This document shows, piece after piece, positions 34,223 to 59,407 of a stretch of 64,000 nucleotides of DNA; positions within the stretch are counted from its first letter, which is position 1; each line of letters starts with the position of its first letter. Source of the DNA: Bordetella pseudohinzii (GTDB taxonomy: Bacteria; Pseudomonadota; Gammaproteobacteria; Burkholderiales; Burkholderiaceae_B); contig NZ_JHEP02000006.1 in the NCBI RefSeq assembly GCF_000657795.2, positions 124,001 to 188,000 of the forward strand. The letters are read 5' to 3'. The translations under genes were made by a program, and so were the position numbers. The notes under the pieces are model-generated. The model worked only from the letters and a program-made list of their open reading frames with translations. It had not been told where the DNA came from and did not search any database.

Positions 34223-34377
34223 GGTGATAGGAACCAGAGTGGGGAATGAAGCCATTCTGCGCGCCTGGCGGCCGGCCTGGCGAGCCCGCCGCGGGACCAG
34301 GATGGGCCCGAAACGGACATGATAATGCGATTCCGCGGGGCGGGCCGCCCGGCCGGGGCAAGCCCCCAGGGGCCGGA

Positions 34378-34383
34378 TACAAT
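34378..34383 (+). promoter_or_regulatory. -10 box TACAAT placed for a leaderless ribD transcript
   Basis: TACAAT ends 7 bp before the ribD ATG at 34391. A transcript starting at the usual distance would begin at or next to the start codon. No purine-rich ribosome site is seen in the intervening bases. The -35 region is GC-rich and not consensus. Confidence 0.4.
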
Positions 34384-34390
34384 CGTTGGC

Positions 34391-35533
34391 ATGAGCGAGC
34401 CCCAAGATATTCTCTGGATGCGGCGCGCCCTGGACCTGGCCCGGGGCGTGATCTATACCACCACGCCCAATCCGCGCGTGGGCTGCGTCATCGTGCGCGA
34501 TGGCCGAATCCTGGGGGAGGGGGCCACCCAGCCGCCGGGCGGCCCGCATGCCGAAATCATGGCCCTGCGCGCCGCCCAGGCCGCCGGCCATGATCCGGCG
34601 GGCGCCACGGTCTATGTCACGCTCGAACCCTGCAGCCATTTCGGCCGCACGCCGCCTTGCGTGGACGCCCTGGTGGCTGCCGCGCCCGCGCGCGTGGTCG
34701 TGGCCCTGGGCGATCCCAATCCGCGCGTGGCGGGCCAGGGCTTCGCGCGGCTGCGCGCCGCCGGCATCGCCGTGAGCGCCGGCGTGTGCGAAAACGAGGC
34801 CCTGGCCCTGAATGCCGGCTTCGTGGCGCGCATGAGCCGGGGCACGCCCTGGCTGTGGCTCAAGCTGGCCGCCTCGCTGGATGGCCGCAGCGCCCTGCAC
34901 AATGGGGTGTCGCAATGGATTACCGGCGAGGCCGCCCGCGCCGACGGCCACGCCTGGCGCGCGCGCGCCGACCTGGTGCTCACCGGCATGGGCACGGTGC
35001 TCAAGGACAATCCGCAACTGAATGTGCGCGCGATCCAGACGCCGCGCCAGCCGCGCAAGGCGGTGGTCGATGGCCAGTTCCGCGTGCCCGAGGATGCGCG
35101 CCTGTTCGACGGCACGCCGGCCTGGGTGTTCACGGCGCGCCAGGACGCGGACAAGGCGGCCCGGCTGGCCGACAAGAATGTCGAGGTGGTCTGCCTGCCG
35201 GATGCCGGCGGACAGCGCGTGGACCTGGCCGCCATGATGCGCTGGCTGGGCGAGCATGAATGCAATGAGGTCCATGTGGAGGCCGGCGCCGGCCTGTCGG
35301 GGGCCTTGCTGGCGGCCGATTGCGTGGATGAGCTGCTGATCTATCTGGCGCCGGTGATGCTGGGCGATGCCGCCGGCATGGTCCAGATGCCCCTGCTGGA
35401 GCATCTGGACGCCGCGCGCCGCTTCCGTTTTACCGATCTGGCGCGGGTGGGCGAGGATGTCCGCCTGCAGGCGCGCGATCCTTCGCGCTGGCTGGCGTTG
35501 CTGGCCAGCGCGCGCCGCGCGTCAGAGAACTAG
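34391..35533 (+). CDS. ribD: Riboflavin biosynthesis deaminase/reductase RibD
   Basis: This 380-residue bifunctional enzyme deaminates and then reduces the pyrimidine intermediate of riboflavin synthesis. The N-terminal zinc deaminase has His53 and Glu55 in PHAEIMAL plus Cys81 and Cys90 in EPCSHFGRTPPC. The reductase domain starts near residue 155 (LKLAASLDGR). The ATG at 34391 gives the normal length; an upstream in-frame ATG at 34319 would place coding sequence over the apparent promoter. No FMN riboswitch is visible upstream. Confidence 0.94.
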   Translation: MSEPQDILWMRRALDLARGVIYTTTPNPRVGCVIVRDGRILGEGATQPPGGPHAEIMALRAAQAAGHDPAGATVYVTLEPCSHFGRTPPCVDALVAAAPARVVVALGDPNPRVAGQGFARLRAAGIAVSAGVCENEALALNAGFVARMSRGTPWLWLKLAASLDGRSALHNGVSQWITGEAARADGHAWRARADLVLTGMGTVLKDNPQLNVRAIQTPRQPRKAVVDGQFRVPEDARLFDGTPAWVFTARQDADKAARLADKNVEVVCLPDAGGQRVDLAAMMRWLGEHECNEVHVEAGAGLSGALLAADCVDELLIYLAPVMLGDAAGMVQMPLLEHLDAARRFRFTDLARVGEDVRLQARDPSRWLALLASARRASEN

Positions 35534-35553
35534 TTTTATCTGGGAGAAATCGC

Positions 35554-36195
35554 ATGTTTACGGGTTTGGTCGCGGCCGTGGGCCGCATCGTGTCGGTCAA
35601 GCCGCTGCCTGGCGAAGAGGCCGGCGTGCGCCTGAGTATCGACGCCGGCGAGCTCGGGCTGGACGACGTCGCCATCGGCGATTCCATCGCGGTGCAGGGC
35701 GCCTGCATGACGGTCATCGAGCTGTCGGCGCGGGGTTTCGCGGTCGATGTCTCGCGCGAGAGCCTGAATCGCACGGTCGGGCTGGAGCGCGAGGGCGAGG
35801 TCAATCTGGAGAAATCCCTGGGCCTGGGCGACAAGCTGGGCGGCCATCTGGTGTCCGGCCATGTGGACGGCCTGGGCGAGATCCTGCGGTTTTCCGATGT
35901 GGGCGAGTCGCGCGAGCTGGTGATCGCGGTGCCCAAGGCGCTGGCGCGTTTCCTTGCCTACAAGGGCTCGATCACGGTCAATGGCATCAGCCTGACCGTC
36001 AATCGGGTCGAGGACACCGCGGACGGTTGCGAGATCAGCATCAACATCATCCCGCATACGCAGGCCGTGACGACGCTGCGCAATGTCAAGGCCGGCGACA
36101 AGGTCAATCTCGAAATCGACATGATCGCGCGCTATGTCGAGCGCATGCTGAGCGCCTCGGGCGCCGTGGAGGGGCGCGCGCCGGCCTGGCTGTAA
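35554..36195 (+). CDS. ribE: Riboflavin synthase, alpha subunit
   Basis: This 213-residue enzyme dismutates two molecules of 6,7-dimethyl-8-ribityllumazine to riboflavin. It shows the internal duplication of the family: MFTGLV at the start of the first lumazine-binding barrel and GDKLGGHLVSGHVDG leading into the second. It lies 20 bp after ribD in the same direction. A tiny open frame begins 8 bases after its stop, followed by a terminator hairpin. Confidence 0.95.
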   Translation: MFTGLVAAVGRIVSVKPLPGEEAGVRLSIDAGELGLDDVAIGDSIAVQGACMTVIELSARGFAVDVSRESLNRTVGLEREGEVNLEKSLGLGDKLGGHLVSGHVDGLGEILRFSDVGESRELVIAVPKALARFLAYKGSITVNGISLTVNRVEDTADGCEISINIIPHTQAVTTLRNVKAGDKVNLEIDMIARYVERMLSASGAVEGRAPAWL

Positions 36196-36203
36196 AGCGC
36201 GTC

Positions 36204-36275
36204 ATGAACGGCAACATCCGTTCATATGCTTATGCCGGCGCGTTGCGCGATCGCGAATCCGCTTGCTGTTGTTAG
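36204..36275 (+). CDS. Putative 23-codon leader ORF ending in Cys-Cys-Cys
   Basis: An ATG 8 bases after the ribE stop opens a 23-codon frame whose last five residues are SACCC (codons TGC TGT TGT TAG). The stop is 7 bases before the left arm of a strong terminator hairpin. A run of one amino acid just ahead of a terminator is the geometry of ribosome-mediated attenuation. The ribosome site is weak (TAAAG), but coupling to ribE translation is possible. Chance occurrence cannot be excluded without conservation data. Confidence 0.35.
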   Translation: MNGNIRSYAYAGALRDRESACCC

Positions 36276-36282
36276 CACTCCC

Positions 36283-36317
36283 AAGCCGTGGCTGCTATTG
36301 CTGCCACGGCTTTTTTT
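36283..36317 (+). terminator. Terminator (possible attenuator) between ribE and prkA
   Basis: AAGCCGTGGC/GCCACGGCTT (36283-36292, 36303-36312) with a 10-nt loop runs into TTTTT. It can end the rib transcript. Because the Cys-triplet frame stops 7 bases upstream, a ribosome held on those codons could reach the left arm and affect hairpin formation. Confidence 0.88.
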
Positions 36318-36394
36318 CATGCGGATGACAGGCGCGCGGAACTTGTCGCGAGCAATAGGGGCCTAAACAAAACAGGCGTCTTCGATCCTGCCTA

Positions 36395-36445
36395 TTGTGT
36401 GTGGTGAAAGTACGACGACTACATAATGTGTGTTGTGCGATCGCA
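36395..36445 (+). promoter_or_regulatory. Direct repeats and palindrome upstream of prkA
   Basis: TTGTGTGTGGTG at 36395-36406 and ATGTGTGTTGTG at 36426-36437 match at 10 of 12 positions and are 31 bp apart, close to three helical turns. A TGCGATCGCA palindrome follows at 36436-36445. The 343-bp interval 36196-36538 otherwise holds the two small frames and the terminator. I find no convincing sigma70 or sigma54 promoter here, so an alternative sigma factor or activator may be used. Confidence 0.35.
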
Positions 36446-36480
36446 ATAAGGACTGGCGAGGCTGGTATAGGAGGAACACA

Positions 36481-36546
36481 ATGGCCATACGGACCCGTGT
36501 TTTGGACCCGTGCTCTAAGTACTGTAGGAGGGTTTGCCGTGCATAG
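36481..36546 (+). CDS. Putative 21-residue cysteine-rich upstream ORF overlapping prkA
   Basis: A consensus AGGAGG (36471-36476) precedes an ATG at 36481 that opens a 21-residue frame. Its end carries three evenly spaced cysteines (PCSKYCRRVC). Its AGG AGG arginine codons are also the ribosome site of prkA, and its TAG overlaps the prkA GTG start region by 8 bases. The good ribosome site and tight overlap suggest it is translated and couples or gates prkA translation. No family is recognised. Confidence 0.5.
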   Translation: MAIRTRVLDPCSKYCRRVCRA

Positions 36547-38464
36547 CATCCTCGAAGGCTTCAAGTCGCAGTATGCGCGTGACCAGGAAGCAGAACTCTC
36601 GCTGGAAGAGTATCTGACACTGGCCAGGCAGGATCCCATGGCCTATGCCAGCCCGGCCGAGCGCATGCTCGCCGCCATAGGCGAGCCGGAACTTGTCGAT
36701 ACACGCAATGATCCCCGCCTGTCGCGCCTGTTTTCCAATCGATTGATTCGGCGCTACCCGGCATTCAAGGAGTTCTACGGCATGGAGGAGGTGATCGACC
36801 AGATCGTCTCTTTCTTCAAGCATGCCGCGCAGGGGCTGGAGGAACGCAAGCAGATACTCTATCTGCTGGGCCCGGTAGGCGGCGGCAAATCATCCATCGC
36901 CGAGCGCCTGAAAGCGCTGATGGAGACCTATCCCATCTATGCCCTGAAGGGCTCTCCCGTCAACGAATCCCCGCTGGGGCTGTTCAATCCCGAGCGCTTC
37001 GGCGAGACGCTCGAGAAGGAATACAACATCCCCCGGCGCTATCTGAGCGGTATCATGTCGCCTTGGGCCGTCAAGCGCTTGAAGGAGTTCGACGGCGATA
37101 TTTCGCAGTTCCGCGTGGTGCGCGTCAATCCTTCGGTGCTGCGCCAGGTCGCCATCGCCAAGACCGAGCCGGGCGACGAGAACAACCAGGACATCTCTTC
37201 GCTGGTGGGCAAGGTCGATATCCGCAAGCTCGATCGCTATTCGCAGGACGATCCAGACGCCTACAGCTATTCGGGCGGCCTGTGCCTGGCCAACCAGGGC
37301 CTGCTGGAATTCGTCGAAATGTTCAAGGCGCCGATCAAGATGCTGCATCCGCTCTTGACCGCCACCCAGGAGGGCAACTTCAAGGGGACCGAGGGCTTCT
37401 CGGCCATTCCCTTCAATGGGACCATACTCGCGCACTCGAATGAATCCGAGTGGCAGACCTTCCGCAACAACAAGCACAACGAGGCCTTCCTCGACCGCAT
37501 CTATATCGTCAAGGTGCCTTATTGCCTGCAGGTCACCGAAGAGGTCCACATCTACGAAAAGCTGCTGCGCAACAGCTCGCTGTCCAAGGCGCCCTGCGCG
37601 CCGGGCACGCTGGACATGATGGCGCAGTTCTCGGTGCTCACGCGCCTGAAGGAGCCGGAGAATTCCAGCATCTATTCCAAGATGCGTGTCTACGACGGCG
37701 AGACCCTGAAGGACGTCGACCCCAAGGCCAAGGCCCTGCAGGAGTACAAGGACTACGCCGGCACCGATGAGGGCATGAACGGCGTGTCGACGCGCTTTGC
37801 GTACAAAATCCTCTCCAGCGTCTTCAACCACGACCAGACCGAGGTGGCGGCCAATCCCGTGCACCTGATGTATGTGCTGGAGCAGCGCATCGCGCGCGAG
37901 GACTTCCCCGAGGAAGTGCGCCGCCGCTACCTGGAGTTCATCAAGGGCTATCTGGCGCCGCGCTATGCGGAGTTCATCGGCAAGGAGATCCAGACCGCCT
38001 ATCTCGAGTCGTACTCGGAGTACGGGCAGAACATCTTCGACCGCTACGTCACGTTCGCCGATTGCTGGATACAGGACGAAGAGTTCCGCGATCCGGAAAC
38101 CGGCGAGAGCTTTGACCGCAGCGCGCTCAACGACGAGCTCGAGAAGATCGAAAAGCCCGCGGGCATCGCCAATCCCAAGGACTTCCGCAACGAGATCGTC
38201 AATTTCGTGTTGCGCGCCCGCGCCAACAATGGCGGACGCAACCCGACCTGGACCAGCTACGAGAAGCTGCGCGAGGTGATCGAGAAGAAGATGTTCTCCA
38301 ACACCGAGGATCTGTTGCCCGTCATCTCGTTCAACGCCAAGGCTTCGGCCGAGGACAGAAGCAAGCACCAGAGCTTTGTCGACCGCATGGTGGACAAGGG
38401 CTACACCGAGAAACAGGTCCGGCTGCTTTGCGAGTGGTATCTGCGGGTGAGGAAGTCGTCCTAG
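36539..38464 (+). CDS. prkA: PrkA AAA+ serine kinase/protease (YeaG type)
   Basis: This 641-residue protein has an N-terminal AAA+ domain with Walker A GPVGGGKSS at residues 111-119 and a C-terminal kinase-like part. It matches YeaG/PrkA along its length (SLEEYLTLARQDPMAYASPAERML near the start, quoted as SLEEYLTLAR). I use the GTG at 36539: the residues align with the family N-terminus, and AGGAGG lies 7 bases upstream. Family members act in nitrogen starvation, stationary phase and sporulation; both kinase and protease activities have been reported. It leads prkA-yeaH-spoVR. Confidence 0.94.
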   Translation: MHSILEGFKSQYARDQEAELSLEEYLTLARQDPMAYASPAERMLAAIGEPELVDTRNDPRLSRLFSNRLIRRYPAFKEFYGMEEVIDQIVSFFKHAAQGLEERKQILYLLGPVGGGKSSIAERLKALMETYPIYALKGSPVNESPLGLFNPERFGETLEKEYNIPRRYLSGIMSPWAVKRLKEFDGDISQFRVVRVNPSVLRQVAIAKTEPGDENNQDISSLVGKVDIRKLDRYSQDDPDAYSYSGGLCLANQGLLEFVEMFKAPIKMLHPLLTATQEGNFKGTEGFSAIPFNGTILAHSNESEWQTFRNNKHNEAFLDRIYIVKVPYCLQVTEEVHIYEKLLRNSSLSKAPCAPGTLDMMAQFSVLTRLKEPENSSIYSKMRVYDGETLKDVDPKAKALQEYKDYAGTDEGMNGVSTRFAYKILSSVFNHDQTEVAANPVHLMYVLEQRIAREDFPEEVRRRYLEFIKGYLAPRYAEFIGKEIQTAYLESYSEYGQNIFDRYVTFADCWIQDEEFRDPETGESFDRSALNDELEKIEKPAGIANPKDFRNEIVNFVLRARANNGGRNPTWTSYEKLREVIEKKMFSNTEDLLPVISFNAKASAEDRSKHQSFVDRMVDKGYTEKQVRLLCEWYLRVRKSS

Positions 38465-49329: not shown

Positions 49330-50847
49330 TCAGGCTTGGATGGTGATGATGTCGCCCGCATGGCGGGCGTATTCGAGCGCGTAGGCCATTTCGCCGCGCG
49401 TCTGCGCATGCAGGAAGAGCCAGGGCTGTCCGCGCGAAACCTCGTCGCCCAGCCGCAGGCGCAGCGAGACGCCGGCGGCGGGCCGTTCGGGCGCGCCGGC
49501 CAGTTTGGCCAGCCGCGACAGCTTGCGGTTGTCGATGTGGACCACGCGGCCGGCCTGCGGCGCCACCAGGGGCTCGACGTGCGCGGCCTGGGGCGGTTCG
49601 CGCAGCCCGCCCTGGGCGGCGCAGATGCGGGCGAACTTCTCCCATGCCAGGCCGCTGTCCAGGGTCCGCAGGGCCAGGGCCTCGCCTTGTCCGGCGGGCG
49701 CGGCGCCGCCCAGCTCAAGCACGGCGCCCGCCACCAGCGCGGCGCGCTCGCGCAGGTCCTGCGGCCGGCCCGGCTCGTTGCGCAGCACGGCTAGCACATC
49801 GCGGGCTTCCAGCGCCGGCCCTATGCCCTGACCCACGGGCTGGCTGCCGTCGGTATAGAGGCAGCGCAAGGCCAGCCCGAAGTGCGAGGCGGTTTCCGTG
49901 AGGTGGGCGGCCAGGCGTTCGGCGGCCTCGCGGCTGCGGACCTTGGCCGTGGGGCCGATGGGGATGTCGATCACCACATGGGTGGCGCCGGCGGCGATCT
50001 TCTTGGACAGCACCGAGGCAATCAGCTGGCCTTCGGTGTCGATGTCGAGTTCGCGCTCCACGCGCACGAAGATATCGTCGGCCGGGCTCAGGTGCATGGC
50101 GCCTCCCCAGGCCACGCATCCGCCTTCGGCGCGGACGACCTGCTGCAGCTGCTCTATGCTCAGGTCGACCGGGGCCAGCATTTCCATGGTGTCGGCGGTG
50201 CCGGCGGGCGAGGTGATGGCGCGCGAGGAGGTCTTGGGCATGACCAGGCCATTGGCCGCGGCGATGGCGACCACCAGCGGCGTGGTGCGGTTGCCGGGCA
50301 GGCCGCCCACGCAATGCTTGTCCACGACGATGGGCGCATCCCAGCTCAGGCGGCCGCCGACATCGACCATGGCGCGGGTCAGGAAGATGGTCTCGTCGAT
50401 GCTCAGCGGCAAGGTGGCCGTGGCGGTGAGAAAGGCCGACAAGTGCACATCGGTATAACGGCCGCGCACCACGTCGCGGACGATGGCCGTCATGTCCTCC
50501 TGGCCGAGCCGCCGGCCGTAGATGCGCTGGCGCACGCCGGCCAGGGATTCGAGCACCGGGGGATGGCGCACCTGCACGATGGCGCCGTCGGCGATGCCCA
50601 GCGCATCCCAGGCGTCTTCGGACAGGGCGACTTCGTCCTCCGCCAGCAGTTCGCTGTCCACCTGGTACAGCAGGGCCTGGACCTCGCGGCCATCGGCCGT
50701 GATCAGCACTTGCGAGCGCGACGACAGGCCTTCGGAGCGGCTGACGTGGCAGTCGGCGCGCATCAGGGCGATGGGCTGGTGCTGCGCATGCAGGCGCATG
50801 CGGGTGGCGCGCATGGCGGGCGGTTTGAGACCGGGGATGCTGCTCAT
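49330..50847 (-). CDS. Long-form thymidine/AMP phosphorylase family protein
   Basis: This 505-residue phosphorylase has an extra N-terminal domain of about 90 residues before the nucleoside-phosphorylase II fold. The phosphate/nucleotide loop reads DKHCVGGLPGNRTTP, as in the AMP phosphorylase branch, not the KHSTGG of DeoA. Related archaeal enzymes phosphorolyse NMPs to base plus ribose-1,5-bisphosphate. The ATG overlaps the preceding stop as ATGA. Being last of four genes that also encode PRPP-synthetase-like and phosphoketolase-like proteins, a role in nucleotide-derived pentose phosphates is likely. Confidence 0.87.
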   Translation of the reverse strand: MSSIPGLKPPAMRATRMRLHAQHQPIALMRADCHVSRSEGLSSRSQVLITADGREVQALLYQVDSELLAEDEVALSEDAWDALGIADGAIVQVRHPPVLESLAGVRQRIYGRRLGQEDMTAIVRDVVRGRYTDVHLSAFLTATATLPLSIDETIFLTRAMVDVGGRLSWDAPIVVDKHCVGGLPGNRTTPLVVAIAAANGLVMPKTSSRAITSPAGTADTMEMLAPVDLSIEQLQQVVRAEGGCVAWGGAMHLSPADDIFVRVERELDIDTEGQLIASVLSKKIAAGATHVVIDIPIGPTAKVRSREAAERLAAHLTETASHFGLALRCLYTDGSQPVGQGIGPALEARDVLAVLRNEPGRPQDLRERAALVAGAVLELGGAAPAGQGEALALRTLDSGLAWEKFARICAAQGGLREPPQAAHVEPLVAPQAGRVVHIDNRKLSRLAKLAGAPERPAAGVSLRLRLGDEVSRGQPWLFLHAQTRGEMAYALEYARHAGDIITIQA

Positions 50848-52202
50848 AGCTCATACCTCTGGTCTTGCCGGGGCACGGTGGCCGACCAATTGAGATCGCG
50901 CAGGATGCGGTCGCGCAGCGCTTCCGATGCCTCGGGCTCGCCATGGACGATGAAGACTTGGCGCGGCGCCTCGCGAAAGCCCGACAGCCAGCGTATCAGC
51001 TCGTCGCTGTCGGCATGGGCCGACAGCATGGGCAGCTCCGTGACCTCGGCGGCGATGGGCATCCATTGGCCGTAGATCCGGGTCTGCCCCGCGCCGTCGA
51101 GCAGTTTGCGTCCGCGGGTGCCGGCGGCCTGGAAGCCCGAGAACAGCAGGGTGTTGCGATGATCGCCGCCAAAGGCGGCGATGTGATGCAGGACGCGGCC
51201 GCCGGTCGCCATGCCGCTGGCCGAGATGATGACCTTGGGATAGCGGTTGGCCGACAGCGCCTTGGACGCCTCGACGTCGCGCACATAGTTCACGGCCGAG
51301 CAGGCGGCCACATACTCGTGCTCGGACAGCTTGTGCTCGTCGGGATGGCGGCTCAGCAGCTCGGTGGCGCTGGTGGCCATGGGGCTGTCGAGATAGACCG
51401 GCACGTTGTCCAGGCGGCCGGCCTGGCGCAGCTTCCACAGCCCGTAGATCAGCATCTGGGCGCGCCCGACGGCGAAGGCCGGAATAACCACGGTGCCGCC
51501 GCGCCTGATGGTGCGCTCTATGACCGCGCCCAGCGCGTCGAAGGGGTCGGCGGGATCATGCCGCCGATTGCCGTAGGTCGATTCAATGACGATGTAGTCG
51601 GCCAGCGGCACGCTCTCCGGGTCGTGCATGACCGGGTCGTTGTAGCGTCCCAGGTCGCCGGAGAACACCACGCGCATGCCGCCGATGTCGACCTGCGCGG
51701 TCGTCGCGCCGAGGATGTGGCCGGCGCGGCGCAGCACCAGCCTGGCGCCGCCGGGCAGGGCGGTTTCCTGGTGCAGCGCCGTCTCGGAAAAGTGTGTCAG
51801 CGCATGCTCGGCGTCCACGACGCGATAAAGCGGCAGGGCCGGCTTATGTTTGGAGAAGCCCTTGCGGTTGGCGTACTCGGCGTCTTTTTCCTGGAGATTG
51901 GCGCTGTCGAGCAGGATCAGTTCGGCGACATCGCGGGTGGCCGCGGTGGCATGGATGGCGCCCTTGAAGCCCTCGGCCACCAGCCGGGGCAGATAGCCGC
52001 AATGATCCAGGTGGGCATGGGTCAGCACCACGGCGTCGATATCGGCCGGCGCGAGGGGCAGGCTCTGCCAGTTCAGTTCGCGCAGGTTCTTCAGGCCCTG
52101 GAACAGCCCGCAATCGACCAGGATGCGGGTATCGCCATGGGTCAGGAGGTGTTTGGAGCCGGTGACAGTGCCGGCGCCGCCCAGGCAGGTCAGTGAGAGC
52201 AT
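50844..52202 (-). CDS. Beta-CASP metallo-beta-lactamase fold protein
   Basis: This 452-residue protein has the HxHxDH zinc motif THAHLDHCGY (His62, His64, Asp66, His67), later ligands in RRAGHILGA and FSGDLG, and a beta-CASP domain with IPAFAVGRAQ and YLDSPMA. The C-terminal RMMBL part has VIISASGMATGGR and SAHADSDELI. The fold is that of CPSF-73/RNase J-type nucleases, so RNA is the expected substrate. It is the third gene of the operon, 12 bp after the phosphoketolase-like gene, which is an unusual place for a nuclease. Confidence 0.92.
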   Translation of the reverse strand: MLSLTCLGGAGTVTGSKHLLTHGDTRILVDCGLFQGLKNLRELNWQSLPLAPADIDAVVLTHAHLDHCGYLPRLVAEGFKGAIHATAATRDVAELILLDSANLQEKDAEYANRKGFSKHKPALPLYRVVDAEHALTHFSETALHQETALPGGARLVLRRAGHILGATTAQVDIGGMRVVFSGDLGRYNDPVMHDPESVPLADYIVIESTYGNRRHDPADPFDALGAVIERTIRRGGTVVIPAFAVGRAQMLIYGLWKLRQAGRLDNVPVYLDSPMATSATELLSRHPDEHKLSEHEYVAACSAVNYVRDVEASKALSANRYPKVIISASGMATGGRVLHHIAAFGGDHRNTLLFSGFQAAGTRGRKLLDGAGQTRIYGQWMPIAAEVTELPMLSAHADSDELIRWLSGFREAPRQVFIVHGEPEASEALRDRILRDLNWSATVPRQDQRYEL

Positions 52203-52214
52203 GGTGTCGCAGCG

Positions 52215-54560
52215 TCAGAGGTCGGAGACGAGCAGGTCGTCGGGATGGCCTTGGCCGTCGAGGGCGCGCCGGCGCGCCGCGTCCAGCACGTCCTCGCGGC
52301 GCCAGCCGGCCACGGCGGCGGCCGCGTCGACGGCGTGGGCCCAGGTCGAGCGGTTGGCGAACAGCATGCCGGCCACATCCAGCGTGCCGCCGCGGCTGAT
52401 ATAGCCCAGGGCCCGCGTGCGCGCCGGGCCGTCGTCCAGGCGGCGCAGCACGCCCAGCATGGGCTCGGGCCGGGTGTGGCAGAGCAGCACGCGCGGCAGG
52501 CCGGGCGGAAAGAGGGCATGCACGGCGGCATCGGGCAGCACGAAGTCCGCCTCGATGCCGTCGCGCGGGGCGCGCAGGCGGCCGGGCTCCAGGATCACGC
52601 TCACGCAGCATTCATGTCCCAGCCGGGCGAGATGGGCGCGCGCCTTGAGCGCCTCTTCGAGCTGGTAGGCGCCGATGGCGACGAACTGCAGCGCGCTGGC
52701 CGCCGGGTCGCCGGCGACATGGGCCGCGCCTTGCTCGGCCAGGGCTTGCGCGGCGCGGCCATCGAAGCGCCGCCGGCCGTCGCGCTTGGAGACGACCACG
52801 CAGGCCACTTGCGCGCGCTGGCCGTAGAGGGCGCGCAGCGCCGCCACGGCGCTATTGCCGTCCACCGGAAAGAGCACGCGCGCGGTATCGGACATCTCGC
52901 CCAGCAGCGCTTCGCCTATGGTCGGATCCTGGTGCGACTGCTCGTTCTTGGCGTTTTCCCAGGTATGGGAGGTGACCACCAGCGGCACCGACAGCCAGGC
53001 CGGCGATTGTCCGAACTCCTTCTGGCGCCGCGCGAAAATAATCTCCTGGCGCAGCAGGCCCAGCATCTTCACGGCGAAGGCTTCGTAGCTGACGATGAGA
53101 TTCAGCCCGGCCTTGTTGGCCAGCGCGGCGGCGGCCACGGCCTCTTCGTTGAGCGCCGTGATCACCGCACCGTGCAGGTCCTCCGGCACGCCGTCTTCGG
53201 GATGGTTGACGCGATGCTTGAGCAGCGCGAGGGTGCCGCCCATCTTGTTGCTGGCCAGCTCATCCGGATTGCCCACGCGCACGCGCAAGGCCGGATTGGC
53301 GCGCAGCAGCGCGATAAACCAGCCGTCCAGCGCGGCCATGGCGCTGCCCTGGCCGCCGACCGCCTCCCAGGCCGGCGCGGGCAGCGCGGGCGCCGGCGGC
53401 TGGCGGTGCGCCATGGGATGGCCGCTTTCGAGGGGGCGCCCCTGGGCGCGGTGATTGGCCAGCGCGGCCAGCGCGGCGTCCAGTTCGGGGCCGGGCACGT
53501 AGAGCCGGCGCGCGCTGTCATTGAAGGCCTGGCGGGCCGCGGCGTCCGTGCGGGGGTTGGCGGCCAGCGGCAGGTTGTGGGCCGCATTGGTGCCGGCGCC
53601 CGGGAAGCCATAGCCTTTTTCGGTCACGGCGATCACATAGGGCAGCCGCGCGGGATAGGCAAAGCCGGGGGCGGCCAGGCTGGCGGCGAGCTTTTCCTCG
53701 GCCGTCAGGATGGCCCAGGCGATGGCCGAAGGATCGCGGCCGTCGACCACGAGCGGCTCGAAGCCGTTGTGCCACAGGTCGTCGGCCAGCCATTGCGCGC
53801 CGCCTTCCTGCACGATCTGGGTGCGCTGCTCGATGCGCCGGCCGTTGAGGATCATGACCGGCACGGCCGTGCCGCAATCCTCGGCCCGCCACCAGCGCGT
53901 GGCCCAGTCGCTGCCGCGCTGCTCTTCGAAAGCGCCATCGCTCAGAAAAGCCACCAGCCCTTCGCCGGGCAGCGGCATGTGCACATACTGCAGACCGGCA
54001 AAGCCCAGGTAGCCGCCTTCCGAGACCGCGCCGGCGGTGTTCGGCCCGGCATGGCTGCCCAGCGGCACGGCCGGCAGCCCCTGCGCGTCGATGGCATAGG
54101 AATAGAAGTCATTGAGCAGGCGCGCCAGGCCCTCGGCGCTGCGGTCGTAGCGGCCGCGCTGGGCCGGCGAGACATCGCCGGTCAGGGCATTGACGGCCTC
54201 GATGGCGGCCACGCAATGGCCCTGTCCCATCAGCCAGCCGCGCGTCTTGCCGCTCAGGGCATTGGCCAGCAGATAGCCCACGAAGGCGGGCACCATATTG
54301 AGCGAGCCGCCGGTATGCCCCTCGGGATTGGGCTTGAAATCCTCGGCGGCCAGCGGCGCGCCATCCAGGTCGATGCGCCGCGCATAGGTCATGTGGGCGA
54401 CCACGCTCATGGCCGCGCAGCACAGCCGGTCGGCCGCGGCCAGGAGCGCATAGGGATCGTCGGCCGCCAGGCCGGCGGCCAGCGCCTCCATGCGGGCCAC
54501 GGTGTCGGCGTGGTGCTGGATGGGACCATGGCCGGCCTGCCATTGCTCGCGCTGCGTCAT
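52215..54560 (-). CDS. Phosphoketolase (XFP)-like thiamine-diphosphate protein
   Basis: This 781-residue protein has the three-domain layout of xylulose-5-P/fructose-6-P phosphoketolase: EGHTGGSLNMVPAFVGYLL, GQGHCVAAIEAVNALTGD, LSDGAFEEQRGSDWA (cofactor region), then SHTWENAKNEQSHQDPT and a transketolase C-like end (each quoted in part). True phosphoketolases have GPGHGGPA and GDGEAETG in place of the second and third. The changes at substrate and cofactor loops suggest a different reaction. Relatives have been annotated as xylulose-5-phosphate 3-epimerase; I cannot verify this. It is the second gene, 27 bp after the PRPP-synthetase-like gene. Confidence 0.8.
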   Translation of the reverse strand: MTQREQWQAGHGPIQHHADTVARMEALAAGLAADDPYALLAAADRLCCAAMSVVAHMTYARRIDLDGAPLAAEDFKPNPEGHTGGSLNMVPAFVGYLLANALSGKTRGWLMGQGHCVAAIEAVNALTGDVSPAQRGRYDRSAEGLARLLNDFYSYAIDAQGLPAVPLGSHAGPNTAGAVSEGGYLGFAGLQYVHMPLPGEGLVAFLSDGAFEEQRGSDWATRWWRAEDCGTAVPVMILNGRRIEQRTQIVQEGGAQWLADDLWHNGFEPLVVDGRDPSAIAWAILTAEEKLAASLAAPGFAYPARLPYVIAVTEKGYGFPGAGTNAAHNLPLAANPRTDAAARQAFNDSARRLYVPGPELDAALAALANHRAQGRPLESGHPMAHRQPPAPALPAPAWEAVGGQGSAMAALDGWFIALLRANPALRVRVGNPDELASNKMGGTLALLKHRVNHPEDGVPEDLHGAVITALNEEAVAAAALANKAGLNLIVSYEAFAVKMLGLLRQEIIFARRQKEFGQSPAWLSVPLVVTSHTWENAKNEQSHQDPTIGEALLGEMSDTARVLFPVDGNSAVAALRALYGQRAQVACVVVSKRDGRRRFDGRAAQALAEQGAAHVAGDPAASALQFVAIGAYQLEEALKARAHLARLGHECCVSVILEPGRLRAPRDGIEADFVLPDAAVHALFPPGLPRVLLCHTRPEPMLGVLRRLDDGPARTRALGYISRGGTLDVAGMLFANRSTWAHAVDAAAAVAGWRREDVLDAARRRALDGQGHPDDLLVSDL

Positions 54561-54587
54561 CGCATGCTCCTGTGGGTGGACGGGGGT

Positions 54588-55460
54588 TCAGTCGCGCATC
54601 AGCGCGCCGGCCAGAAGCGGCGCGAGTTCGATGCGGTTGCTGGGATGGGGCACGGCGTCGGTGGACACGACGCGCTCGAAGCAGCCCGACACCTGGCTCC
54701 AGGCGTCTTCGGCAAAGAGGGCGTGGACCACCACGCATTGCGCCGGTTTCATGCCGGCCAGCTTGCCGGCGGCCGCCACCAGCGTGCGTCCCGATGAGGC
54801 GATGTCGTCGACCAGCACCGGCGTGCGCTCGCGCCAGGCGCTCAGGTCGGGCGCCTCGATCTCCACCTGGCGGTCGCCGTGGCGGACCTTGCGCAGCACC
54901 ACATGCGGCGCGCCGATGCGCGCGGCGATGGAGCCGGCCCATTGCTCGCTTTCTTCATCCGGGCCGATGATGAGCGGGGCCTGCACATTGGCGGCGATCC
55001 AGTCGCCCAATAGCGGCGCGGCGTGCAGCGTGACCGCCGGGATGCGGTAGAGCGAGGCCAGCGTCGGATGGCGGTGCAGATGCGGGTCCACCGTGATCAG
55101 GCGGTCGAAGGTCGTCGAGATCAGCCGGGCAAACGAATGCGAGCTGATGCTCTCGCCCGGCAGAAAGCGCTTGTCCTGGCGCATATAGGCCAGGTAGGGC
55201 GCCACCAGGTTGACCTCGGCCGCGCCGAGTTCGCGCGCGGTGTCGGCCACGAAGACCAGACTCAGGAAAGCGGGATCCGGATGGGCCAGGGTGCAGAACA
55301 CGTCCACGGCGCGCCCGCGAGGGTCGCCGTGCAGGCGCACATAGCTTTCGCCATCGGGAAAGCGGCGGGTCTCGACCGTGCCGAGTTCGCCGCCGCAGGC
55401 CGCGGCCAGGCGGGCCGCGGAGGCTTCATTGCCGGGAAGAGGAAGGATCAGTCTCTGCAT
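54588..55460 (-). CDS. Ribose-phosphate diphosphokinase-like protein (short form)
   Basis: This 290-residue PRPP-synthetase paralogue has RRFPDGESYVRL near the start, the metal-site region TVDPHLHRHPTL, the flexible-loop lysine in VVLRKVRHGD and the PRPP loop VLVDDIASSGRTL. The canonical bacterial loop is VDDxxDTxGT, so this one differs. At 290 residues it is shorter than housekeeping Prs (about 315) and nearer to archaeal forms; the allosteric parts seem reduced. It is the first gene of a four-gene operon. A CATAAT at 55529-55524 may be its -10. A separate housekeeping prs is expected elsewhere. Confidence 0.87.
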   Translation of the reverse strand: MQRLILPLPGNEASAARLAAACGGELGTVETRRFPDGESYVRLHGDPRGRAVDVFCTLAHPDPAFLSLVFVADTARELGAAEVNLVAPYLAYMRQDKRFLPGESISSHSFARLISTTFDRLITVDPHLHRHPTLASLYRIPAVTLHAAPLLGDWIAANVQAPLIIGPDEESEQWAGSIAARIGAPHVVLRKVRHGDRQVEIEAPDLSAWRERTPVLVDDIASSGRTLVAAAGKLAGMKPAQCVVVHALFAEDAWSQVSGCFERVVSTDAVPHPSNRIELAPLLAGALMRD

Positions 55461-55565
55461 GCGCGCCGCCGGTGAGTGGAGGGGCCCGGTCGCACATGCT
55501 GCCTGCCGGGCCTATGCGCATCGATTATGCGCCCAAGCGCGCGCGCCGGGGGAGGGCTTGTTGGG

Positions 55566-55594
55566 CCAAACCTTGAACTAACGCAAAGGTTTGG
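55566..55594. promoter_or_regulatory. 9-bp inverted repeat upstream of the PRPP-synthetase-like operon
   Basis: CCAAACCTT (55566-55574) and AAGGTTTGG (55586-55594) are perfect arms with an 11-bp spacer. They lie between the stop of the exported lyase gene (55615) and the operon start (55460). It could be an operator or an RNA hairpin; there is no T tract on the minus strand to make it a clear terminator. Confidence 0.45.
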
Positions 55595-55614: not shown

Positions 55615-57156
55615 CTAGCGCCCCGCGGCCAGCAGTTTGTCGAAGTCCTGGTCCAGGCGGGCCAGCGAGCGCTGGATGTGCTCGCGCCGCGCCTTGATCC
55701 AGGCGTCGTCGTCGGCCAGGCGCTGGCGAGCCTCCTTGAGCATGCGCGTCATTTCGGCCGGCTGCGGGCCGCCGGCGGTGGCCCGATGCTGGATGATGGC
55801 CACCGGGTCCAGCGTGGCGCGGAATTCAGCCTCGTTCATGGGCAGCTCCTGCGGGTATTTGCTGCCCTGGACGGCCTCGTGATAGATGCGGCGCGCCTCG
55901 GCGTAGGGGAAGTCCAGCGGCTTGATGTTCTTGGCGCGCGCCAGGGTCACGATCTCGGAGGCGAAGTGATGGCCGACGCGGAAAGGCAGCTGGTATTTGC
56001 GCATCAGCACATCGGCCAGCTCCTGCGAGGCGGTCCAGTCGCTGTTGAGTTCTTCGAGGGCGCGCTCACGGTTGATGACCAGGGCCTTCATCACCCTATC
56101 CCATTTCTTGAGCACCTTGATGGCGCTTTCGACCATGGCGCTGTTCTGGTCGACTTCCTTGGGGTCCGGCATGCCGGGGGTGATGTTGTGCATCTGGAGG
56201 ATGGGGCCCATGGCCAGCGTCACGGCCGTCGAGGCGTCGCTGCGCAGCGAGTTCAGCAGACCGGGGTTGCGCTTTTGCGGCATGGCGCTGGAGACATAGG
56301 TGTTGCCGCCGCCTTCTTCCAGCAGGATCCAGGGCCGGGTCTGCGAATACTGCGGCATGATGTCCTGCACGAAGTTGCCGGCATGCAGGGAGATGGCCGT
56401 CACGATGGAGGCGACTTCCACGGGCTCGTCCATGGACGAAATCTGCGAGGCGTCGTAGGCGTTGTCCACCAGGGCCGCAAAACCGAGATAGTCGGCCATG
56501 CGCTTGCGGTCCAGCGGCCAGCTGCTGCCGTTGAGCACGGTGGTGCCCATGGGCGAGCGGTCGATGCGGGCATAGGCCTCGCGGATGCGCTGGGCGTCGC
56601 GCGCCAGGCCGGCCGCGTGGCCCAGCAGGTAATGCCCATAGCTGTTGGGCTGGGCCGCCACGCCATTGGTGTAATTGGGCACCACGGTGTCGGCGTGCCG
56701 CGCGGCCAGCTCCACCATCGTGGCGGCGCTGCGGTTGAGCTGCTCGGCCAGGGCCAGCATGTTCTCGCGCAGGATGGCGGCCCGGTAGGTGGCGTGCATG
56801 TCCTGGCTGGAGCGTCCGGCGTGCAGCAGGGTGACGTCCTGGCCGGCCGCCTTGATCATCAGGGGCTCGAAGGTGATGACGCTGGAGGGGCGCTTGCCGC
56901 CGGGCTGGTTGCCGGCCTCGATCACCTGGGCCACGCCGGCGGCGATCTTGGGCGCCAGCGTCTTGTCCAGCAGGCCCTGGTCGGTGTTGATGACGGCGCT
57001 GGCCTTGTTGATTTCGCCCAGCCAGAAAAATTCATCGCGCGGCGGCTTGGGAGCGGGCGCGGAAGCGGCGGCGGCCGGGGCGGGCGGCGCGGCGGTCTGG
57101 GCGGCGGCGGTCGCGCTGCCCAGGGCCAGGGCAAGCAGGCAAAGAGTGTGTTTCAT
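55615..57156 (-). CDS. Exported argininosuccinate lyase-like protein
   Basis: This 513-residue member of the aspartase/fumarase superfamily starts with a Sec signal peptide (LCLLALALGSATAAAQ, cut near residue 20) and an Ala/Pro-rich linker, so it is probably periplasmic. The superfamily signature reads SSAMPQKRNPG; LHAGRSSQDMHATYR corresponds to the second conserved region. Cytoplasmic ArgH makes arginine and fumarate; an exported relative is unusual and must act on a periplasmic substrate. It follows an M14 deacylase gene by 19 bp, suggesting sequential steps on an N-acyl or N-succinyl compound. Confidence 0.85.
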   Translation of the reverse strand: MKHTLCLLALALGSATAAAQTAAPPAPAAAASAPAPKPPRDEFFWLGEINKASAVINTDQGLLDKTLAPKIAAGVAQVIEAGNQPGGKRPSSVITFEPLMIKAAGQDVTLLHAGRSSQDMHATYRAAILRENMLALAEQLNRSAATMVELAARHADTVVPNYTNGVAAQPNSYGHYLLGHAAGLARDAQRIREAYARIDRSPMGTTVLNGSSWPLDRKRMADYLGFAALVDNAYDASQISSMDEPVEVASIVTAISLHAGNFVQDIMPQYSQTRPWILLEEGGGNTYVSSAMPQKRNPGLLNSLRSDASTAVTLAMGPILQMHNITPGMPDPKEVDQNSAMVESAIKVLKKWDRVMKALVINRERALEELNSDWTASQELADVLMRKYQLPFRVGHHFASEIVTLARAKNIKPLDFPYAEARRIYHEAVQGSKYPQELPMNEAEFRATLDPVAIIQHRATAGGPQPAEMTRMLKEARQRLADDDAWIKARREHIQRSLARLDQDFDKLLAAGR

Positions 57157-58165: not shown

Positions 58166-59407
58166 TCAGGAACGGTGGGTTTTCAGCAGGTGGCGCGCGA
58201 TCTCGACCAGCGGCCGTCCGCTCTGCATGGCGGCCTGCTGCAGCTGGGCATGGGCGGCGGGCTCGGAGAGCTGGCCGCGCGTCATGAGCAGATGCTTGGC
58301 CCGATGGATGTCGCGCTGTTCGTCCAGGGCGCCGCGCGCCTGGGCCAGCGCCTCGCCGGCCTTGTGCAACTGCTCCGTCTGGGCCTGGAGCGTGTCCAGC
58401 AGGGAGCGTTCCATGGACGGCCCGACACCGTCGGCCGCCGGCTGGTCCAGCGAGCGGCCCTGCACGTTGAACAGCATGGCGGGCGGGACGAGCGCCGGAT
58501 CGAAACGGCCGGGCGGCAGGCGGGGGTCGCGCAGCGCGTCGCGCGCCTGGCCGATGCGCTGCCGGCAGCGCGCGGCCAGGTCCTGGGTCAGCCCGGCCGC
58601 GATGGGCAGCATGGCGTCGATGCGCGCCGTGCATAGATCGAACCAGAGCTCGGCCAGATCCGGATCCAGGGTGTGGCTTGCGTCGGTCACGGCCGCCATG
58701 GCGCGCAGGCGCGCGACCGGCGCTTCGTGCTGGCGCGCTTGCCGCCAGGCCTGCAGGATGGCCGCGGGCGCATGGCGCTCGAAGCTTTCGAAGCTGCGCT
58801 CCTGGTCGGCGGCAAGTCCGGTCATCCTGGCTTTTTGCGCCGCATCAAAATGCCCGGCCGTATAGCCCATGACGCCATGGGCTCTTTCCTGGCCAGCCAG
58901 CTCCTTGCCCTGCATGAAGTTCAATAGGGCCACCAGCGCCCGGGTGATGTCGGCGTCCAGGGCGGTATCGGCCGCCTCGAACACCACGGCCAGCAGGTGG
59001 GCGATCAGGCGCGTGAAGGCGGCGCTGGCCTGCGGGGCGTCGATGCGCTGCTGGCGCAGGCGCGCGCGCAGCTCGGGCAGCTCGTCCAGGCCGTACAGCG
59101 CGTGGGCGATGCGGTTGTACAGCCGGGCCTTGCCGCCTTCGCGGCCGCAGTCCATGCCGTCGAGGAAACGCCGCAGCTCGCCCTCGCGTTCCTCGGCCTG
59201 GGCGCTGAGCGCATCGAGCGTGGCGCGCTGCCCGTCGCGGGCAAGGCAGAGATAGAGGTTGGACCAGCCGCGCTCCTTCTGGAGCGCATGCACGAGCTCG
59301 CTGGCCAGGGTCACGAAACTGCAGATGTGGGCCAGCGCTTCCAGGTCGCGCAGCTCGGACTGGCGCGCCGCCAGCAGGAATTTGAGTGTCGGTGCGACGC
59401 GGCTCAT
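58166..59407 (-). CDS. nasR: NasR-type nitrate/nitrite-responsive antiterminator
   Basis: This 413-residue protein has an N-terminal NIT sensor domain (about residues 25-300; LVHALQKERGWSNLYL is its conserved start) and a C-terminal ANTAR RNA-binding domain over about the last 65 residues (IHRAKHLLMTRGQLSE). In Klebsiella NasR, nitrate or nitrite binding to NIT lets ANTAR disrupt a leader terminator. The gene is last in the nirB-nirD-nirC-kinase-cobA run. Its RNA target should lie in a leader outside this window, since none of the visible gaps holds a two-hairpin ANTAR site. Confidence 0.88.
   Translation of the reverse strand: MSRVAPTLKFLLAARQSELRDLEALAHICSFVTLASELVHALQKERGWSNLYLCLARDGQRATLDALSAQAEEREGELRRFLDGMDCGREGGKARLYNRIAHALYGLDELPELRARLRQQRIDAPQASAAFTRLIAHLLAVVFEAADTALDADITRALVALLNFMQGKELAGQERAHGVMGYTAGHFDAAQKARMTGLAADQERSFESFERHAPAAILQAWRQARQHEAPVARLRAMAAVTDASHTLDPDLAELWFDLCTARIDAMLPIAAGLTQDLAARCRQRIGQARDALRDPRLPPGRFDPALVPPAMLFNVQGRSLDQPAADGVGPSMERSLLDTLQAQTEQLHKAGEALAQARGALDEQRDIHRAKHLLMTRGQLSEPAAHAQLQQAAMQSGRPLVEIARHLLKTHRS

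Follow-up and report, generated by a model that had tools for sequence, protein, structure and literature searches.

We have analysed a four-gene operon of Bordetella pseudohinzii (assembly GCF_000657795.2; 4.54 Mb in 48 contigs), which occupies positions 49330-55460 of a 64,000-nucleotide stretch of contig NZ_JHEP02000006.1 (positions 124,001-188,000), hereafter the window. Two of its genes, encoding an AMP/NMP-phosphorylase-type protein (NMP, nucleoside monophosphate) and a divergent paralogue of phosphoribosyl pyrophosphate (PRPP) synthase (Prs), form an inseparable core, and the glycine loop of PRPP synthases is altered in the Prs-like protein. The reading that we favour, at a little short of an even chance, is that the operon encodes a low-oxygen catabolic module that would carry the ribose of RNA through ribose-1,5-bisphosphate (R15P) to acetyl phosphate and ATP, each reaction being predicted from family membership and conserved residues.

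A four-gene operon with a two-gene core

The operon comprises four open reading frames (ORFs) on the minus strand, with intergenic gaps of 27 and 12 bp followed by a 4-bp overlap. Re-reading of the ORFs reproduced exactly the coordinates and spacing of a first-pass annotation that had been made from the window's letters, and Pfam and NCBIfam matches upheld its four family assignments. The layout is ordinary and the content is unusual:

54588-55460, minus strand: Prs-like protein, 290 amino acids, a PRPP synthase paralogue in which ES..W replaces GG..R after the Asp170 equivalent
52215-54560, minus strand: XFP-like protein, 781 amino acids, a divergent phosphoketolase that retains most active-site residues
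50844-52202, minus strand: MBL/beta-CASP/RMMBL protein, 452 amino acids, with the RNase TTHA0252 as closest solved relative
49330-50847, minus strand: AMP/NMP-phosphorylase-type protein, 505 amino acids, of PRK04350/TIGR02645 type by Pfam and NCBIfam

A phylum sample of 199 genomes was searched with the phosphorylase and, at E < 1e-40, with the Prs-like protein. The phosphorylase was found at 27 places in 26 genomes with at least 41% identity and more than 370 bits, the remaining matches being DeoA/PyNP-like and below 132 bits; the Prs-like protein was found at 27 places in the identical 26 genomes, a coincidence with a chance of 4e-33 when genomes are treated as independent and kinship is left uncorrected. 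These 26 'pair genomes' represent 18 genera and 14 families. At all 27 places the two genes share one cluster and one strand; they are immediate neighbours less than 400 bp apart in 25 of the 26 stretches that were fetched and 3.8 kb apart in the other, and in the window, the 27th place, 3.7 kb and two genes lie between them. A beta-CASP gene belongs to the cluster at 13 of the 27 places and a divergent XFP gene at 4 (window included). The inseparable core is the phosphorylase with the Prs-like protein; XFP and beta-CASP are variable members, and several arrangements exist besides the four-gene form. The idea that the genes act as a linked set stands as far as their wide clustering goes, with an obligate part of two genes rather than four; rare co-occurrence, which the first-pass annotation had named as a ground for refuting it, does not apply to that pair.

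The same counts speak to another explanation, that a stress or metal-resistance island has gathered unrelated low-oxygen genes that share no pathway. Some clusters do lie on plasmids, beside metal ATPases and transposases, and the list of FixK2-dependent genes considered below holds many other genes, but the identity of the two genome sets, and the presence of both genes on one replicon even where they are unlinked, make an island of this kind highly improbable.

An XFP-anchored set was drawn from alpha-, beta- and gammaproteobacterial records by a protein scan, from which the best 80 of 537 relatives were taken; the closest among the matches listed are from Achromobacter, at 84-86% identity. 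All four genes are present in 40 of these 80 loci (two fragments of our own genome, L001 and L002, were excluded from the count). Seven loci lack only Prs, two only the phosphorylase and one only beta-CASP; the reduced forms are XFP with beta-CASP (19, in some of which the beta-CASP protein is 41-42% identical and its gene about 4 kb off), XFP with Prs (2) and XFP alone (9). After near-identical loci had been merged into 54 groups, both the phosphorylase and the Prs-like gene were found in 30, neither in 19 and one of the two in 5, with some contigs ending early. Shared occurrence of the operon genes exceeds chance.

The module also occurs on plasmids. Among the plasmid records common to the two proteins' listings of 60 (n=49), the two genes lie within 6.5 kb of each other in 45, and 46 of 115 plasmids bearing the module are typed as conjugative. 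On a Rhizobium rosettiformans plasmid, an arginine deiminase operon and an adenylate kinase gene stand upstream of the four genes, with a carbamate kinase gene also near; on a plasmid of Variovorax sp. WDL1, rpe, gnd and tal lie within about 13 kb of a three-gene form. Seven clusters from Thauera, Achromobacter, Variovorax, Brachymonas and Tolumonas records (L032, L036, L037, L039, L040, L041 and L066) are highly similar by shared k-mers, several carry an ORF that resembles an integrase by eye, and together they are probably a mobile island. On a plasmid of Sphingobium sp. YBL2, copies of IS6100 lie between the Prs-like gene on one side and the genes for the phosphorylase and the MBL protein on the other (L134:8220-10833 and 34284-38165).

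The phosphorylase is of the AMP/NMP type

The best solved relative of the phosphorylase is 4ga5, which we take to be the T. kodakarensis enzyme, at 336 bits, and thymidine and pyrimidine phosphorylases reach at most 124 bits. At 33 diagnostic positions, which 71 family members conserve and none of the 8 DeoA/PyNP proteins examined shares, it agrees with the T. kodakarensis enzyme in 24, and it carries the motifs PGN[KR]T, PKTSSRAITS, C..WGG and ER.L..D, which are absent from those 8 proteins. It passes the broader models NF003338 (660 against a cut-off of 434 bits) and TIGR02645 (566 against 434.6); with TIGR03327, the AMP phosphorylase model, it scores 473 bits, under the curated cut-off of 535, and we therefore label it 'AMP/NMP-phosphorylase-type' rather than a proven member. 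An identity as a thymidine or pyrimidine nucleoside phosphorylase was rejected on scores (TIGR02643, 141 against 570.7; TIGR02644, 176 against 409) as well as motifs, and no second phosphorylase match was found in this genome at E 1e-20. Scores and motifs thus fall on the AMP phosphorylase side, as the first-pass annotation had it, and the protein would be expected to split NMP with phosphate into base and R15P.

The Prs-like partner has an altered loop

The Prs-like protein scores 182.9 bits with TIGR01251, against a cut-off of 113, and also passes NF005537. Its closest structure is 1u9y, a short archaeal enzyme, presumably from Methanocaldococcus. Residues were counted in 66 family rows against this genome's own canonical Prs, with E. 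coli numbering assigned by alignment; one row with G, G and R, probably the canonical Prs of L096, stays in the counts. Ligand contacts of PRPP synthase, according to the text available from PMC9232217, include F35, D37, R99, H131, D170, D220, D221, T225 and T228. Across the family, Phe35, Asp37, Arg96, Asp98, His131, Asp170, Lys194, Arg196, Asp220, Asp221 and Thr228 are retained in 63-66 of 66 rows, and with them the adenine, metal, ribose-5-phosphate (R5P) and catalytic residues, the last of these in PRPP synthase being Lys194 and Arg196. The loop that follows Asp170 has changed: Glu takes the place of Gly172 in 65 of 66 rows, Ser that of Gly173 in 63 and Trp that of Arg176 in 65. Beyond the loop, Asp224 is Ser in 64 rows, Thr225 is Ser in 57 and Arg99 is variable.

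The glycine loop of PRPP synthase binds the diphosphate of the product, and replacement of its residues (GG..R by ES..W) means that the Prs-like protein may not be an ordinary PRPP synthase. Were it one, it would be a low-oxygen isoform which, with the phosphorylase, recycles bases through PRPP. The curated cut-offs that it passes and the catalytic residues that it keeps would suit such a role; however, a canonical Prs (399 bits) is already encoded in this genome, and the GG..R residues are replaced in 63-65 of the 66 rows, so that we regard this isoform as distinctly improbable. The altered loop argues instead for a chemistry other than PRPP synthesis, and we infer that the enzyme handles a single phosphate at C1, as in R15P. 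One C1 phosphate, combined with the usual attack on a beta-phosphate, would give the reaction R5P + ADP = R15P + AMP, which could run in reverse in energy-poor cells.

Candidate enzymes for the fate of R15P

The archaeal route from R15P, through R15P isomerase and Rubisco, is not supported for this module. Isomerase above the cut-off was found in 0 of the 26 pair genomes, and no match of any kind in this genome; homologues below the cut-off, at 139-180 bits, occur in 15 of the 26 and were taken for MtnA-type proteins. Rubisco is present in 14 of the 26 and had no match here, which agrees with the Rubisco-free route of the first-pass annotation. PhnN passes its cut-off in 5 of the 26, this genome among them, and was rejected as a general partner of the phosphorylase. 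Among the R15P-consuming candidates searched, the Prs-like gene alone is common to all 26 pair genomes.

The scarcity of PhnN leaves room for the Prs-like enzyme itself to do what PhnN does and turn R15P into PRPP, the PRPP branch of the first-pass annotation, by which NMP ribose would feed nucleotide, His, Trp and NAD synthesis. Its retained R5P and adenine-nucleotide sites would allow this; the post-Asp170 loop, having lost glycines and gained an acid, should disfavour a 1-diphosphate, and the association with phosphoketolase and acetate kinase would be left unexplained. We consider such a role decidedly unlikely.

A divergent phosphoketolase and its acetate kinase neighbours

The XFP-like protein is the sole XFP of this genome. 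It matches the Pfam families XFP (133.7 bits against 22) and XFP_N (40.4 against 23.7), and six NCBIfam phosphoketolase models at 54-110 bits, none of which it passes (cut-offs 777-1518; best match 109.9 against 962). In the accessible text of PMC10547157, the active site of the Bifidobacterium phosphoketolase comprises His64, 97, 142, 320, 553 and 548, Glu479, Tyr501, Ser440, Gly155, Asn549, Gln321 and Gln546. Matched by alignment and residue numbering, 10 of these 13 residues are retained in 82-83 of 83 family rows, of which one, probably the canonical phosphoketolase of L102, stays in the counts: the equivalents of four of five His, Glu479, Tyr501, Ser440, Asn549 and Gly155 are found in 83 of 83 and the fifth His in 82. 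Judged from these residues, the protein may make acetyl phosphate and glyceraldehyde-3-phosphate.

Genes were called in the XFP loci with a codon-scored script of our own, which yielded no genes in L044 and so left 79 of the best 80 loci. Within flanks of at most 10 kb, acetate kinase stands near XFP in 44 of these, phosphotransacetylase in 17, Usp in 14 and an archaeal-type glyceraldehyde-3-phosphate dehydrogenase in 10, and this proximity of acetate kinase makes acetyl phosphate the likely end of the route. In B. pseudohinzii, acetate kinase is encoded on another contig (C5; L130:2804-8284), in a DUF3141-pta-ackA-fabI run ('fabI' is our name for a gene with a Pfam match to enoyl-ACP reductase), with a one-mismatch FNR-like site, TAGATTAGGATCAA, which by eye lies some 100 bp ahead of the first ATG. 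This run is probably the operon that partners the module for acetyl phosphate.

An XFP of some kind occurs in 10 of the 26 pair genomes and 26 of the 173 others (p 0.011, with genomes treated as independent and kinship uncorrected). It is of the divergent type and in the pair cluster in G000, G003 and G145; canonical (1492 bits) in G076, some 0.7 kb away from the pair; canonical and adjoining acetate kinase in G122 and G182, where 9 and 20 kb separate it from the pair; and elsewhere in the genome in G035, G111, G149 and G108. The G076 locus (L102:345-7609) also encodes the beta subunit of an alternate-type F1F0 ATPase (TIGR03305) beside the pair, together with its canonical phosphoketolase.

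A LOG-family gene (PGGxGTxxE in 11 of 11) occurs at 11 XFP loci that lack the pair and at 0 of 48 loci with the phosphorylase; acetate kinase is found at 10 of these 11 loci and a divergent beta-CASP gene at 8. LOG enzymes cleave NMPs to base and R5P, and a one-enzyme step from NMP to R5P may therefore replace the pair there.

The remaining member of the operon has MBL, Beta-Casp and RMMBL domains and an HxHxDH motif, from which a part in RNA degradation may be expected. It was not taken for the Cas14 of type VII CRISPR systems, since it reaches 388 bits with that model and the cut-off is 800.

Possible control by oxygen

Upstream regions were tested for an FNR box, TTGATNNNNATCAA, with at most one mismatch. 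It was present in 10 of 80 non-redundant regions from 110 loci. Forty dinucleotide shuffles gave 0.4 on average and never more than 2, random windows drawn from these loci gave a mean of 1.0, and 19 decoy palindromes composed of the same letters gave 0-1. The stricter pattern TTGA-N6-TCAA was found in 4 of the 80 regions, with 0.6 expected from control windows, a weaker result than the one-mismatch test. Four of the 10 regions head pair loci (L003, L055, L058 and L087).

Two elements lie upstream of the window operon:

55569-55592, minus strand: palindromic element AAACCTTTGCGTTAGTTCAAGGTT; its equivalent in Achromobacter relatives reads AAACCTTTGAGTTACATCAAGGTT and includes an FNR-type core, and the core in the window differs from TTGATNNNNATCAA at 3 positions
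55524-55529, minus strand: CATAAT, which may be a -10 hexamer; it follows the FNR-like core by 43 bases, and the spacing at four Achromobacter loci is 42 or 43

The FNR-like box would be centred near -62 in the window. With 3 mismatches in its core, FNR-type control of the window copy is only suggested, and the AAACCTTTGCGTTAGTTCAAGGTT/AAACCTTTGAGTTACATCAAGGTT pattern was drawn from these same sequences, so that its zero chance matches mean little. A role for the palindrome as an RNA structure was rejected, its folding being nothing unusual (z -0.36).

Expression has been published for relatives in Bradyrhizobium diazoefficiens. In the text available from PMC6515984, bll3115, bll3116 and bll3117 are raised in microoxia, 15.4-, 7.7- and 5.1-fold as transcripts and by log2 values of 2.9, 4.4 and 2.1 as proteins. 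As given in the accessible text of PMC9104804, deletion of fixK2 lowers bll3115 30.6-fold, bll3117 6.6-fold, bll2518 (phosphoketolase) 10.0-fold and bll2517 (acetate kinase) 10.2-fold; both operons, bll3117-bll3115 and bll2518-bll2517, are listed with a FixK2-like motif. The parts of both papers available to us state no function for the bll3115-bll3117 triplet.

Just upstream of the operon, positions 55615-57156 encode an argininosuccinate-lyase-like protein (189 bits, below the argH cut-off of 279.5), with an N-terminal signal peptide apparent by eye, and positions 58166-59407, on the operon's strand, a NIT-ANTAR protein with a nitrate/nitrite-sensing domain, likely an RNA-binding antiterminator.

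A proposed pathway and its rivals

Based on these data we can outline a route. The beta-CASP nuclease would assist the breakdown of RNA, and the phosphorylase, by its kinship with AMP phosphorylases, would convert NMP and phosphate to base and R15P. The Prs-like enzyme, its obligate partner, would then remove R15P through the C1 phosphate, most likely as R15P + AMP -> R5P + ADP; the pairing and the altered loop both point to this form, in which a Prs-type attack on the beta-phosphate, with AMP as leaving group, would involve one phosphate rather than two. Housekeeping Rpi and Rpe, we assume, would supply xylulose-5-phosphate, which the XFP-like phosphoketolase, judged from its active site, would cleave to acetyl phosphate and glyceraldehyde-3-phosphate, and the acetate kinase from the other contig would yield ATP and acetate. 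Low-oxygen induction and FixK2 dependence are published for the Bradyrhizobium relatives, and FNR-type control may apply here. In its strongest form, the proposal makes the Prs-like protein a new R15P:AMP phosphotransferase that, with the phosphorylase, takes NMP to R5P and keeps the bond energy as ADP, and by which aerobes, aided in the XFP-bearing forms by phosphoketolase and acetate kinase, would ferment RNA of their own once oxygen is exhausted; we put this forward as speculation, and as a whole it is unlikely. As for the route of the first-pass annotation as a whole, it is supported in part: the linkage and the AMP-phosphorylase type have held, neither isomerase nor Rubisco had a match in this genome, and the four-gene core has given way to a core of two.

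Several observations weigh against the catabolic reading. The equilibrium of NMP phosphorylases lies toward NMP, so a pull on R15P would be needed, and to our knowledge no enzyme of this clade has been assayed. With PhnN present in B. pseudohinzii, R15P could reach PRPP without the Prs-like enzyme. In the XFP family, His548 has become Lys, Gln321 and Gln546 have become Asn, and Arg442, which we take to be a further active-site position outside the published set, is variable. XFP is absent from 16 of the 26 pair genomes and acetate kinase from 7, and the acetate branch is therefore not the general fate of R15P; the 11 LOG loci amount to 5 non-redundant groups. Six of the 10 FNR-box regions head XFP loci in which the pair was not found (two of them on short contigs), and the window scan gave no FNR site with at most 2 mismatches upstream of the operon. 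On plasmids, the phosphorylase and Prs-like genes lie 26-46 kb apart in 4 of the 49 records listed for both; IS6100 splits one of the four, and two others have no nearer copy in the fetched stretches. Finally, the available text of PMC6515984 lists the triplet and bll2518 among genes that are neither induced in bacteroids nor direct targets of FixK2, whose action may hence be indirect.

The pair genomes without XFP would also fit a salvage direction, in which R5P is converted to R15P by the Prs-like enzyme and then joined to free bases by the phosphorylase, so that NMPs form without PRPP. Such a route would draw on the same obligate pair and the same changed loop, and would be served equally by the failure to find R15P isomerase above the cut-off in the 26 pair genomes. 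The neighbours, however, have energy-yielding or degradative functions, as do acetate kinase, phosphotransacetylase and the beta-CASP nuclease, with arginine deiminase, carbamate kinase and adenylate kinase nearby on one plasmid, and we think salvage unlikely.

Comparison with known systems

The catabolic reading touches several described systems, and a search of titles and abstracts in the open-licence literature turned up the Bradyrhizobium tables and archaeal studies but no paper on the pair or the route, which does not prove their absence from print. The low-oxygen lxa locus of Burkholderia cenocepacia resembles the module in that the MBL-fold protein M0300 and six Usp proteins are encoded in or by it, and differs in that term searches of the available text of the same papers found no phosphorylase, Prs-like protein or XFP (PMC6127331, PMC9104464). 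The phosphoketolase pathway of bifidobacteria and lactic bacteria shares most active-site residues and the acetate kinase neighbour with our system, whereas here the XFP is of a divergent subfamily and nucleotides would be the feed.

A close parallel is in B. diazoefficiens, where, as far as the available text goes, bll3117-bll3116-bll3115 unite the same three families in one operon (PMC6515984, PMC9104804), and bll2518-bll2517 form a phosphoketolase and acetate kinase operon with the same FixK2 dependence; unlike in the window, XFP there belongs to another operon than the triplet. Within the sample, three genomes of a single genus (g69), taken for Bradyrhizobium, have the triplet order of B. 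diazoefficiens and an XFP of about 300 bits, in the canonical range, with none of the divergent type. If our reading is true, it would account for one part of the response of Bradyrhizobium to low oxygen that has been published without an explanation, would correct two common annotations (thymidine phosphorylase and ribose-phosphate pyrophosphokinase), and would mean that RNA could serve aerobes as a source of ATP in anoxia.

Most of what has been established about R15P metabolism comes from archaea, and the present module, with isomerase above the cut-off in none of the 26 pair genomes, recurs on plasmids as well as in records of alpha-, beta- and gammaproteobacteria. The archaeal NMP shunt, or pentose bisphosphate pathway, consists of AMP phosphorylase, R15P isomerase and Rubisco, and bacterial copies of it with Rubisco are already published (the WOR-3 paper, and species cited in the text available from PMC9700705). 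The two systems are alike in their first enzyme, which is of the NMP phosphorylase type and has 24 of 33 diagnostic residues in common with that of T. kodakarensis. They differ in that the bacterial module has no isomerase above the cut-off in its 26 pair genomes and, in this genome, no Rubisco match; it has instead a Prs paralogue as the obligate partner of the phosphorylase, and an association with phosphoketolase and acetate kinase.

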